DNA of 36,581 nucleotides from a virus: the IMG/VR virus record IMGVR_UViG_3300017987_000202, positions 1 through 36,581 of that record; one strand, 5' to 3'. The position numbers and the translations under genes are program-made. Each line of letters opens with the position of its first letter. Position 1 is the first letter of the stretch. Shown here in pieces: positions 1 to 3,316 of the stretch. A model generated the notes under the pieces. That model was given only the letters and a program-made list of their open reading frames with translations. It made no database searches and was not told where the DNA came from.

Positions 1-19
1 ATTTTTGCAGGAAAGACCG

Positions 20-217
20 ATGAAGATAGGAGACTTTGAAGCAGTTGATTCAAGATGGTTTTCCCTGTACGGACACAAGGATAAGGCCAATATGTTATGG
101 CAGTTTTGCAACGGATCGAATACTGTGGAAAAACTTTGCAGCATTGACGGAGAGTTGGACCCGGGCGCACTTGTTCAAGTTGCTCAGTTGGCACAATTAA
201 ATCTGGTAACAGCATGA
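20..217 (+). CDS. Small winged-helix-like protein, possibly the end of a longer protein
   Basis: The protein has 65 residues if the ATG at 20 is used. An AGGAAAG Shine-Dalgarno sequence lies five bases upstream, so I prefer it to the TTG at 5. The frame is open to the left window edge, so this could be the C-terminal part of a longer gene. The second half (GSNTVEKLCSIDGE, then QVAQLAQLNLV) has the spacing of a small winged-helix or PqqD-like fold: a conserved turn, a short helix, then a hydrophobic helix ending in a glycine-less 'LNLV' strand. No function can be assigned. The stop codon overlaps the ATG of the next gene (ATGA), so the two are probably translationally coupled and the product may belong to the DNA-modification cassette. 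Confidence 0.5.
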   Translation: MKIGDFEAVDSRWFSLYGHKDKANMLWQFCNGSNTVEKLCSIDGELDPGALVQVAQLAQLNLVTA

Positions 218-1086
218 AAGTTTTTCTGGCTGGAGTAGAACTATTTTACGGCAAGTATAGAAATCAGCCGGACGTGTATAATCTATTGGCCGATTCAAAT
301 CATTTTTATTGCTACAACAATAAGAAAGCTTGTACGGAAGCAGTTAAGGTCGTGCCGGGACGGATACGTATCTGTGATAGTGGGGCGTATTTTTATATTC
401 ATAAGCATCGAGCCGAGGAAGTTAAATTCAAAGAACTTGGAGTGGACAGCGGAAAGTTTGTTGTAAATTATATTAAATGGATTCAGCGCAATTGGGACAG
501 CTTTGATTATTTCGTAGAATTCGATCTTCAGGAATTGTTGCCTTATGAAATGATAATCAGATGGCGAAAGCTTTTTGACCGGGCACAGATTTCAGAGAAG
601 ATGATTTACGTTATGCATAAAGATAACACGATGGACGAATGGAAAGAGATGGTTGATTCTGCGGAAAGTAGATACTGCGGTATTTCTAAATTGCATTCGT
701 GGATGAGTTATACGAGATACATTAAGTATGCTTATGACAACCAGTGCAAGGTTCACGGTTTTGCAATGACAAGACCAGCTCAGACTTTGGAGTATCCTTT
801 TTATTCGGTTGATTCGGCAACATGGTATGCGGTTGCATTGTTCGGCCAGACGGTTAAATGGGACAGTGTGCTCAGTGCGGTGAAGGAATATCAATCAGGT
901 GCAAACGTCTGGACTAAGAAAAATATGGCATATCTTCTTAAAAGGGGAATACCTTCATGGTATAAAGATACCAAGAATGAGAGAGTGTTGATTCACAAAA
1001 TTCAGAACTCGGTGAAGGCATACGTTCAGTGGGAACAGCACTTGAAAAAATACTGGGCACAAAAAGGTGTTGTATGGCACGATTAA
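214..1086 (+). CDS. dpdA: DpdA-family DNA 7-deazaguanine transglycosylase (TGT-like)
   Basis: This 290-residue protein has the pattern of phage DpdA, a relative of tRNA-guanine transglycosylase that exchanges guanine in DNA for a 7-deazaguanine base. Visible landmarks are ICDSGAYF (D55, matching the DSG motif of the TGT base pocket), VEFDLQE around residue 101, CGISKL near 155 (position of the TGT glycine loop), and VHGFAMT followed by YPFYSVDSATW near 180-204. D200 in the last motif aligns with the nucleophilic aspartate. The TGT C-terminal tRNA-binding domain is absent, as expected of phage DpdA forms. The next gene is queC, which supplies the preQ0 base and strongly supports the assignment. 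Start ATG overlaps the upstream stop. The family call comes from remembered motifs, not a search. Confidence 0.82.
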   Translation: MKVFLAGVELFYGKYRNQPDVYNLLADSNHFYCYNNKKACTEAVKVVPGRIRICDSGAYFYIHKHRAEEVKFKELGVDSGKFVVNYIKWIQRNWDSFDYFVEFDLQELLPYEMIIRWRKLFDRAQISEKMIYVMHKDNTMDEWKEMVDSAESRYCGISKLHSWMSYTRYIKYAYDNQCKVHGFAMTRPAQTLEYPFYSVDSATWYAVALFGQTVKWDSVLSAVKEYQSGANVWTKKNMAYLLKRGIPSWYKDTKNERVLIHKIQNSVKAYVQWEQHLKKYWAQKGVVWHD

Positions 1087-1757
1087 ACAAAAAGGTTCTG
1101 GTGCTATTCAGCGGAGGAATGGATTCGGCTGTATGCTTGAAGTGGGCCATGGATCGTTACGAAAGGCCCAAGGCAATAATTTTTGACTATGGACAAAAGC
1201 ATTCTGTGGAGATTAATCAGGCACGGCGAATATGCAGGAGTTGGAATGTTCCTTATGCTGAGGTAGATATTAAAACATTCGGCCACATGGTTGATTCCGG
1301 ACTGGTTGATGATACCGGAGAGGTGGATGGCTTTCATAAACGGTTAAAACATTTACCGGCATCCTATGTCCCTAATAGAAACGCTTTATTTCTTACGCTG
1401 GCACATGCATATGCACAGCGGCATAGAGTTAGCACTATGGTATTCGGTGCAAGTCAGACCGATGATTCTGGTTATCCGGACTGCAGAAAGCATTTCATAA
1501 ACGGCATGGAGGCGGCATTGAATATAGGTTCTGATTCAGAGATAGCTATTTTGGCCCCATTGCTAAACAAGAACAAGGCGGACATATTCAAGATGGCATA
1601 TGGGCAGGGTATTTTGCAGACGCTTATTGAAGAAACTCATACTTGTTATAATGGAATCAGGGAAAAGCATGATTGGGGCTACGGATGCGGGGAATGTCCA
1701 TCCTGTAAAATAAGAAAAGAGGGCTGGAGCAAATATCGTGCAGTCAGTGACCATTGA
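1074..1757 (+). CDS. queC: 7-cyano-7-deazaguanine (preQ0) synthase QueC
   Basis: QueC converts 7-carboxy-7-deazaguanine, ammonia and ATP into preQ0. The PP-loop ATP pyrophosphatase motif SGGMDS sits at residues 13-18. YVPNRNALFL and FGASQTDDSGYPDCR are characteristic internal blocks, and the C-terminal zinc site is visible as HTCY plus CGECPSCKIR. Length is 227 residues, normal for QueC. I chose ATG 1074 rather than an upstream GTG because the standard N-terminus (basic residues, then VLVLFSGG) begins there and AGGTG precedes it. It overlaps the end of dpdA by 13 bases and itself overlaps the next gene. No queD, queE or folE is in this window, so CDG would come from the host or from genes elsewhere in the phage. 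Confidence 0.95.
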   Translation: MARLNKKVLVLFSGGMDSAVCLKWAMDRYERPKAIIFDYGQKHSVEINQARRICRSWNVPYAEVDIKTFGHMVDSGLVDDTGEVDGFHKRLKHLPASYVPNRNALFLTLAHAYAQRHRVSTMVFGASQTDDSGYPDCRKHFINGMEAALNIGSDSEIAILAPLLNKNKADIFKMAYGQGILQTLIEETHTCYNGIREKHDWGYGCGECPSCKIRKEGWSKYRAVSDH

Positions 1758-2175
1758 TGAAGCAGGGGCTGCAATTGCTGAAGCAATTAGCGGTGAGCAT
1801 TTCGACTGGTATGTAGCCATTACCAGAGGGGGAATGGTTCCAGCGTGTGCTATTGCTCAAAGAACAGGCATGCATCAGGTGGATACATTTTGCTGCAAGA
1901 GTTATGATAAGAATCGGCAACGGCATAATTTGGATTGTTCTTACAAGGGTTATTTTCATTTGAAGAATCAGCGTGTACTGGTGATAGATGATTTGGTTCA
2001 TACTGGAAAGACCATGCATAGAGCTTTAGTAATTCTCAGTCTGTTCGGTGCAAGAAAAATCAAAACAGCTGCAATTTATAAAAAGGTCGGTTCGATAGTT
2101 GAGCCGGATTATTATCTGCATGAGATTCCGGAAAGTGAATGGGTAAAATTTCCGTGGGAGACAGACAATGGCTAA
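1738..2175 (+). CDS. Purine phosphoribosyltransferase (Gpt/XPRT-like)
   Basis: This 145-residue protein has the type I phosphoribosyltransferase layout. It shows an early ITRGGMVPA loop, the PRPP-binding signature VLVIDDLVHTGKTM at residues 81-94, and a C-terminal KFPWE, the base-binding end typical of xanthine/guanine PRTases. Length matches E. coli Gpt (about 152). Translation probably begins at GTG 1738, with GGAG eight bases upstream, so the gene overlaps queC by 20 bases. It also overlaps the next gene by eight. Known members join guanine, xanthine or hypoxanthine to PRPP. Inference: it may recapture guanine released when DpdA swaps bases, or act on a deazapurine. Substrate cannot be told from sequence alone. 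Confidence 0.85.
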   Translation: MQSVTIDEAGAAIAEAISGEHFDWYVAITRGGMVPACAIAQRTGMHQVDTFCCKSYDKNRQRHNLDCSYKGYFHLKNQRVLVIDDLVHTGKTMHRALVILSLFGARKIKTAAIYKKVGSIVEPDYYLHEIPESEWVKFPWETDNG

Positions 2176-2758
2176 AAGAAAGAACAAGGAAAAGTTTTCA
2201 ATCGGATTCGTAGAGATACCACTGGACAGGCTTATTCAGGCGGACTGGAATTACAAGGACAACGATCCAGATCTGGCTGAAGCTCTTGAGCGAAATATCA
2301 GCGAGAGAGGGCAGGTCGAAAATCTTATAGTTCGGGAGCTGGGAAATGATTACGAAATAGTAAACGGTAATCACAGACTGCCGGTTCTTAAGAACTTGGG
2401 ATACGAGACGGCCATGTGTTACAACCTCGGCAATATTAATTCGGTAATGGCAAAGCGTATAGCAATCGAAACGAATGAGACGAGATTCGATAATGATGAA
2501 GTCATTCTGGCGAAAGTCATCAAGGACATTACGGAAGAGATTCCTATGGACGAGCTGGAATATACGATGCCTTACGACAGAGACGAGCTGGATGAATATC
2601 TGGCTAATGCTTCAGACTTCGATTGGGAAGAGGAGAGTCAGGAAGGTGAGCCTACGGATCCGGCCGGTAATTCCGGTGAGGATGATGATCTTCAGGAGAA
2701 TGAGATTGAGTGTCCACATTGCGGCGGGATAATTATTGTGGAAGAGGAGAAGGAGTAA
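2168..2758 (+). CDS. ParB/sulfiredoxin-fold protein, copy 1, with C-terminal Cys knuckle
   Basis: The 196-residue product has a ParB N-terminal domain. IPLDRLIQADWN marks the first strand and loop, ERGQVENLIVRE is box I, and YEIVNGNHRL at residues 63-71 is the nucleotide-binding box II (GxxR type, GNHR here). ETNETRF follows. An acidic linker leads to CPHCG at 182-186, a single zinc-knuckle half. There is no HTH DNA-binding domain as in chromosomal ParB, so plasmid-style partitioning is unlikely. Known relatives include phage ParB-like nucleases, sulfiredoxin-fold kinases and the DpdB partner of DpdA in bacterial dpd clusters. Position directly behind dpdA-queC-PRT makes a role in DNA modification attractive but unproven. 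Confidence 0.8.
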   Translation: MAKRKNKEKFSIGFVEIPLDRLIQADWNYKDNDPDLAEALERNISERGQVENLIVRELGNDYEIVNGNHRLPVLKNLGYETAMCYNLGNINSVMAKRIAIETNETRFDNDEVILAKVIKDITEEIPMDELEYTMPYDRDELDEYLANASDFDWEEESQEGEPTDPAGNSGEDDDLQENEIECPHCGGIIIVEEEKE

Positions 2759-2761
2759 GCC

Positions 2762-3316
2762 ATGGCGGGAAAAATTAAAAAGGGATTTACAATGATACCG
2801 GTAAAGCGCCTCATTCCTGCAGAATGGAATTATAAGCTGGATGATGAAGAACTGGCCGAGAAGTTAAAAAATAATATTGAAATGCATGGTCAGCTGGAAA
2901 ACATTATGGTGCGGCAGCTGGATTCAGGTGGATATGAAATTGTGAACGGCAATCACAGATTGCCAGCTTTCAGAGATTTGAAAATAAAGGAAGTGATGTG
3001 TTTTAACTTCGGAAAGATTTCCGATGCACAGGCAAAACGGATTGCGGTCGAGACAAATGAGACGCGATTTCCTACGGACTACATAAGACTAGCCGAATTA
3101 ATCAAGGGCATTTCGGATGAAACACCTATGGAGGAGCTGGAAAGAACGATGCCTTGGACAATGGAGGAGCTTGAGGACTTCAGAAAGTTTATTGATCTTG
3201 AATGGCCAGTGGACCAGAAAAACGAAACGACGGAAACGGTTGAGCTTGAGGAGGGGGAAATTATTTGTCCACATTGCGGAGAGGTTGTAAATATAGATGA
3301 TGAAATGAACGAATAG
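2762..3316 (+). CDS. ParB/sulfiredoxin-fold protein, copy 2, with C-terminal Cys knuckle
   Basis: This is a clear paralogue of the preceding gene. IPVKRLIPAEWNYK, MHGQLENIMVRQL, YEIVNGNHRLP (GNHR at 63-66), AKRIAVETNETRF and TPMEELERTMPW all match the first copy in the same order. It too ends in an acidic linker plus CPHCG (C169, C172). It has 184 residues and starts three bases after the upstream stop. The GAGGAGAAGGAG run that closes copy 1 serves as ribosome binding site. Tandem duplication with divergence throughout suggests either a heterodimer or two specialised partners. A zinc site could form across a dimer, each chain giving two cysteines; that is inference. Function is unknown beyond the fold. 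Confidence 0.8.
   Translation: MAGKIKKGFTMIPVKRLIPAEWNYKLDDEELAEKLKNNIEMHGQLENIMVRQLDSGGYEIVNGNHRLPAFRDLKIKEVMCFNFGKISDAQAKRIAVETNETRFPTDYIRLAELIKGISDETPMEELERTMPWTMEELEDFRKFIDLEWPVDQKNETTETVELEEGEIICPHCGEVVNIDDEMNE

Follow-up and report, generated by a model that had tools for sequence, protein, structure and literature searches.

Most work on phage DpdA concerns 9g-like phages, in which it has no ParB neighbor. In bacteria, DpdB is a ParB-like ATPase that is used with DpdA for insertion, and it is dispensable in some clusters (PMC12839542). ParB proteins form NTP-driven clamps that close around DNA. Members of the wider fold bind CTP, ATP or GTP, and the arginine of the GxxR motif, through which they do so, is required for NTP binding in ParB-fold proteins, those of phages included (PMC12704722). 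ParBc proteins that adjoin CmoX have been described with a function reported as unknown (PMC12783734), and the same applies to phage ParB-methyltransferase fusions (PMC12704722). In mycobacteriophage CRB2, ORF1 (ParB) lies beside ORF2 (DpdA), and ORF1 is proposed in one sentence to be a DpdB homologue (PMC6392294); the passage concerns a single genome and contains no analysis of the family, the gene order or controls. The literature searched, in which the key work on DpdB and phage 7-deazaguanine was incompletely covered, gave no systematic account of phage DpdA paired with two classes of ParB, as described below.

Gene organization at the left end of the window

The DNA analyzed here (the window, 36.6 kb at its full length) is a piece of the genome of a contractile-tailed phage, and carries genes for the tail sheath, tape measure, baseplate and head. 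At its left end, dpdA is followed by queC, a gene for a phosphoribosyltransferase-fold protein (PRTase), two ParB genes and then a Mu F-like head gene (Table 1). The original prediction, which was made from the letters of the DNA alone, had placed dpdA, queC and the PRTase gene upstream of the ParB pair, and this was confirmed by the matches to phrog_887, PF06508 and PF00156 and by the superposition of the DpdA model on TGT. The predicted overlap of the first ParB copy with the PRTase gene was found in the ORF coordinates to be exactly 8 bases. Conservation of the order of all five genes in other phages had been suggested as a check; this order was seen in this virus only (the window, L003 and L004), and the conserved unit is dpdA-ParB.

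Table 1. Features at the left end of the window
Feature	Position	Strand	Remarks
dpdA	214..1086	+	TGT-fold DNA-guanine transglycosylase-like, 290 aa; phrog_887 E 1e-17
DpdA C-terminal tail KKYWAQKGVVW (consensus TxLWxxRG[IV]xW)	1045..1077	+	marks DpdAs with a ParB gene downstream
queC, 7-cyano-7-deazaguanine synthase	1074..1757	+	PF06508 E 3.5e-65; ORF open from 1029, ATG at 1074 probable
Phosphoribosyltransferase-fold protein (PRTase)	1738..2175	+	between queC and ParB1; PF00156 E 1.5e-14
ParB1, 196 aa	2168..2758	+	WNYK 2246-2257, GNHR 2366-2377, ETNETRF 2468-2488, CPHCG 2711-2725
ParB2, 184 aa	2762..3316	+	WNYK 2825-2836, GNHR 2948-2959, ETNETRF 3050-3070, CPHCG 3266-3280
ParB2 HTH-like acidic three-helix unit (residues 106-147)	3077..3202	+	AF2 model, structure superposition, residue charge

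L004, a contig of 86.5 kb, derives from the same virus (99.8% identity over 9313 bases) and adds FolE (195-731) and QueD (84993-85394). The virus therefore carries most genes of the preQ0 pathway, among which no QueE was identified. Upstream of dpdA on this contig (749-3114), a radical SAM gene (PF04055, 4e-11), the end of which forms the first ORF of the window (5-217), is accompanied by a gene with a weak likeness to glycosyltransferase 4. These two genes could serve for a further modification of the inserted base. Two unrelated phages, that of the window and L058 (near 5570), have a phosphoribosyltransferase-fold gene located between dpdA and ParB.

ParB1 and ParB2 have the nucleotide-binding fold of ParB

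ParB1 and ParB2 are about 50% identical (E 7e-53), and therefore their likeness is not due to chance. Both copies contain the motifs WNYK, GQ.EN, VNGNHR, AKRIA.ETNETRF and a C-terminal CPHCG, and both matched PHROG ParB families (1e-19 and 7e-23). With the ParB_N profile (PF02195), ParB2 scored above the cut-off (9.8e-8) and ParB1 below it (5.6e-4). From this identity and these matches, the prediction of two diverged tandem ParB-fold copies, each with GNHR and CPHCG, proved correct.

The AF2 model of ParB2 (m760ec83a4a7d; pLDDT 91) was superposed on the N-domains of ParB proteins with CTP analogues or CDP, with Z of 14.5-13.7 and rmsd of 1.4-2.2. The best superposition on ParB-CTP (Z 14.5) had an rmsd of 1.4 over 91 residues, and together with the PF02195 match it assigns ParB2 to the ParB/Srx N-domain fold; sulfiredoxin and free serine kinase were weaker structural matches. 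Among the aligned ParB relatives, G63 and R66 of the GNHR pocket, the latter being the arginine of the GxxR P-motif, were both found in 71/71, and within the Box III-like ETNET sequence N99 was kept in 70/71 and E100 in 64/71.

TIGR00180 gave 32.7 bits for ParB2 against a cut-off of 58.45 and did not match ParB1. No ParA-like gene was found among the scanned genes, which are part of the window's gene set. The DpdB family models (NF041060 and TIGR03187) matched neither ParB1 nor ParB2 at E<=1. A comparison with the DpdB and ParB families had been proposed, and its outcome was divided: ParB_N (PF02195) was matched, and DpdB (NF041060) was not. ParB1 and ParB2 are ParB-fold proteins, neither canonical ParB nor DpdB.

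The statement that the pair has no HTH domain held for sequence profiles but not for the AF2 model of ParB2, in which residues 106-147 form three HTH-like helices that superpose on HTH domains with Z of 4-5. The superpositions on KorB (Z 12.9 over 8-147) and Noc (Z 11.7 over 6-147) include the matching HTH part of these proteins. This unit is strongly acidic across the 71 aligned relatives (mean net charge -7.5, range -12 to -1), and for this reason it is unlikely to read DNA in the classical way. The HTH-like unit, as well as the fusion of the ParB domain of this subfamily to DNA methyltransferases described below, would fit a protein that reads the DNA sequence and picks the guanines for exchange by DpdA. 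However, the unit is acidic in every one of the 71 relatives, and many relatives have other C-terminal modules, so that we regard such a role in target selection as very unlikely.

The ParB genes are linked to dpdA

When relatives were recruited by ParB sequence alone, 88 unique ParBs were obtained, which formed 69 clusters at 70% identity. The dpdA gene was directly upstream in 46 clusters and farther away in 2, while 10 were DNA methyltransferase fusions, 6 were cut by a contig edge, and 5 were in other contexts, including L086 (after a PAPS-reductase gene), L102 (after QueE), L088 (after QueD) and L076 (beside a ParB-methyltransferase fusion). The partner idea would have suffered if the relatives occurred mostly in phages without dpdA; the opposite was seen, and most of them adjoin it. 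The two genes usually overlap, the commonest junctions being 4, 31 or 34 bases. As a control, the same DpdA HMM detected dpdA in 0/45 SSU5-type ParB loci, which represent one related enterobacterial phage group. The adjacency was also found in the cultured phages phiSM, Mufasa8 and phiFN37 and in the MAG contigs L103 and L105; in cultured phage Cracklewink one small gene separates DpdA and ParB, and in Roos the ParB is located about 340 bases upstream of DpdA. Therefore, the part of the original prediction that regarded the pair as partners of DpdA is well supported by this linkage, although the "DpdB-like" part, in the sense of family membership, is not (no NF041060 match).

The surroundings raise the question of whether the ParBs are part of the terminase/head region and serve packaging, by nicking or by regulation, with dpdA as a chance neighbor. 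TerL was found within 4.5 kb downstream of ParB in 38/59 assessable loci, the head gene after ParB2 in the window has a similar bearing, and some ParB-fold proteins nick DNA (PMC12839542). Nevertheless, in L022, L119, L177, L182 and L185 the dpdA-ParB unit is kept with QueC, QueD or QueE after it and no terminase, the second ParB class described below lies on the opposite side of dpdA, and the control ParB genes are near terminase without dpdA. A packaging factor is thus quite an unlikely explanation of the pairing.

A second ParB class lies upstream of dpdA

In the reciprocal set, recruited by DpdA alone, there were 79 DpdA copies in 75 loci. A ParB of the window's family (type A) was downstream of 44 copies, a ParB of a second class (type B) was directly upstream of 27, and 8 had neither; as the DpdA tail motif was among the patterns used for recruitment, the ratio of type A to type B is not a census. 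The 8 copies with neither consist of 3 at contig edges, 3 second copies or fragments, L216 (polymerase clamp nearby) and L221. For all unique DpdAs at 70% identity (n=103), the numbers were 70 with type A, 25 with type B and 8 with none. We had considered the label "ParB-less" for the DpdAs without type A and rejected it, as most have a type-B ParB upstream.

Type B (L190-L237) is a ParB_N class of about 160-185 aa with the pattern NNPR...GGNxR, and it typically overlaps dpdA by 4 bases. PF02195 matched 9/10 of those tested, the hhalign probability between types B and A was 97.7%, and 8/28 type-B members have a CPxC tail like that of type A.

Two DpdA copies were observed close together on each of the contigs L224, L213 and L210. 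An apparent natural DpdA-ParB fusion in L090 was rejected as a frameshift: the normal DpdA end (HYTRLWQERGVLWPE, then the stop) is in the next frame, and the contig has Ns. In L242 (4755-8516), a series of small genes, most of them zinc-ribbon-like, encodes proteins that end in [KR]ER[IV]; these ends are probably the ribosome-binding site of the next gene read as codons.

Tandem copies and the C-terminal tail

About nine lineages have dpdA followed by two ParB genes. The tandem duplication recurred, as the two members of several pairs (L175, L201 and L090) are each other's sisters in the tree, whereas an old pair is kept in L038/L044/L057. For the L038/L044 pair, dN/dS was about 0.2 and 0.16, and both copies are under purifying selection.

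The C-terminal tail of ParB2 forms a beta hairpin that encloses one CPxC, or half a zinc knuckle. An obligate heterodimer had been proposed from this half knuckle and the duplication. Many dpdA-linked single-copy relatives have the CPxC tail as well (L007, L050, L051 and L103), and an obligate heterodimer is therefore not general: because single-copy relatives share the tail, the half knuckle demands no heterodimer, and the zinc site could be completed by a homodimer. Many relatives (L069, L096 and their kin) end not in CPxCG but in a module VSEETYxxWxxL...GYDNESKVxEFAxIExLNIP, which has no Pfam match.

ParB relatives in other contexts

Fusions to N4/N6-type DNA methyltransferases occur within the ParB subfamily of the window (L008, L009, L015, L018, L021 and L107-L111), and these relatives are again paired with DNA base modifiers. 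In L016 (1273-2840), the contig of L086, a gene with a PAPS-reductase domain overlaps a single ParB gene of the subfamily and is followed by a radical SAM gene, which is possibly a cluster for another DNA modification. In SSU5, nickie, RHEph10 and BUCTxx99 (L023-L026), tandem ParB genes are accompanied by ABC/AAA-type ATPase genes and, where the stretch includes the terminase, lie upstream of it; no dpdA was detected in these phages by phrog_887.

DpdA of the window and its C-terminal tail

The AF2 model of the window DpdA (pLDDT 93) was superposed on Zymomonas tRNA-guanine transglycosylase over 260 residues, nearly the whole length, with Z of 17.5 (VIA-align). D55, D104, H181 and D200 were invariant in 61 ParB-linked DpdAs, and the protein has the TGT fold with conserved catalytic-type aspartates; judged from their order along the chain, D55, D104 and D200 would correspond to the catalytic residues of TGT. 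W281 of the tail was present in 61/61 aligned ParB-linked DpdAs, and the whole tail motif was found in 73/87 DpdAs with a type-A ParB downstream versus 1/30 without. On the tree, 5 independent contrasts on starred branches were available, of which 2 went in the same direction, 0 in the opposite and 3 were equal (p 0.5), so the association of the tail with ParB is at the level of clades only. The tail is a candidate docking segment for ParB. In a mirror-tree test for coevolution, DpdA and ParB were not correlated (r ~ 0).

9g-type phages and the sliding clamp

The annotations show no ParB adjoining DpdA in the 9g-type phages 9g, CAjan, PaMx25, RHEph04 and PSTCR7 (loci L114, L118, L256, L258 and L259) or in Dp-1, and the ParB HMM had no match on the 9g and PaMx25 stretches. 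Because 9g-type DpdAs have no ParB neighbor, not every phage DpdA requires a ParB. In 9g, PaMx25, CAjan and RHEph04, an annotated DNA polymerase processivity factor is beside dpdA or one to two small genes away, and PSTCR7 has an unnamed gene with a similar start of sequence at this position. A homologue of the polymerase clamp was near only 3/30 DpdAs without a type-A ParB, and the clamp pairing is therefore limited to the 9g type. One may speculate that phage guanine exchange generally needs a DNA clamp whose gene adjoins dpdA. Phages of the 9g/CAjan/PaMx25 type would use the sliding clamp of the replicative polymerase, and the others an NTP-driven clamp of the ParB fold (type A downstream or type B upstream); we find this generalization rather doubtful. 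If it were true, the modification would be post-replicative and clamp-borne in the ParB class, and replication-coupled in the sliding-clamp class.

Proposed function

We consider it probable that ParB1 and ParB2 serve DpdA as dedicated partners, with a function that depends on the NTP-binding ParB fold; a clamp or loading step, taken alone, is put forward tentatively, as a possibility somewhat short of probable. In the proposed scheme, the TGT-fold DpdA would exchange guanine in the phage DNA for a protective 7-deazaguanine supplied via QueC. The ParB proteins retain Box I, the GxxR P-motif (as GNHR) and a Box III-like ETNET, which make up the nucleotide pocket in ParB CTPases, with the DNA-reading HTH replaced by the acidic helical unit and the dimerization domain by the short half-zinc-knuckle tail. 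The ParB protein would most likely dimerize and bind NTP, and between replication and packaging this NTP switch would serve to load DpdA on duplex DNA, to hold it there or to activate it. The phage ParB would thereby do the job of bacterial DpdB from a different branch of the ParB fold. The fold, the conserved pocket residues, the specific and recurring linkage to dpdA and the purifying selection on a tandem pair of a related phage are observations, whereas the physical contact with DpdA, the use and type of NTP, the clamp action and the hetero- or homodimer state are presumptive elements of the scheme. The observations that count against it are the mirror-tree result, the 9g-type DpdAs with no ParB neighbor, the frequent position of ParB just ahead of terminase, and the tandem ParB pairs of SSU5, nickie, RHEph10 and BUCTxx99, in which no dpdA was detected.

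The same proteins might instead act negatively, limiting or timing DpdA or its operon in an NTP-dependent, DndB-like manner, for example with the acidic unit as a mimic of nucleic acid. In dnd systems, negative regulation is the proposed role of DndB, a member of the ParB superfamily (PMC12839542); the HTH-like unit carries a strong acidic charge, and DGQHR proteins can be aligned with the phage ParBs at the columns of the P-motif and Box III. However, the profile similarity between the 71 ParBs and the DGQHR relatives is weak (hhalign probability 18%), bacterial DpdB is positive for insertion (PMC12839542), and the near-universal pairing and the overlap with dpdA suggest a needed partner. Such a regulator is therefore unlikely.

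If most phage DpdAs have a ParB-fold partner, the in-vitro work on DpdA may have missed a component, and the annotation of such genes as "ParB partition" or "ParB-like nuclease" is misleading. Also, the role of ParBc domains beside DNA modifiers (methyltransferases, CmoX and DpdA) would become testable on one small gene pair.

Comparison with known systems

Bacterial DpdB (NF041060), like the phage ParBs, belongs to the ParB superfamily, is encoded next to a TGT-fold DpdA and has a G-x-H-R P-motif (DGQHR, [ND]GNHR in the phage proteins), but it is a DGQHR protein of about 350 aa compared with about 160-240 aa. Extra copies occur in both, since dpdB is most often multi-copy (PMC11888242) and the phage ParBs are found in tandem. 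DpdB is an ATPase needed for preQ0 insertion; the phage ParBs, in which the pocket residues are conserved, might have a corresponding activity.

With the CTPase N-domain of ParB/Noc/Spo0J, the phage ParBs have in common the fold, the GxxR P-motif and the position of Box III. They differ from ParB/Noc/Spo0J in having no DNA-binding sequence profile, no ParA partner seen among the scanned genes and no C-terminal dimerization domain, and they have instead the acidic HTH-like unit, the WNYK signature and the CPxCG tail. The phage CmoX-linked ParBc proteins and the ParB-N6/N4 methyltransferase fusions likewise combine a ParB domain with a DNA base modifier, as a neighbor or within one fused protein. 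The modifying enzyme in those systems is different, yet relatives within the present subfamily (L008, L015 and L018) themselves carry the methyltransferase fusion.
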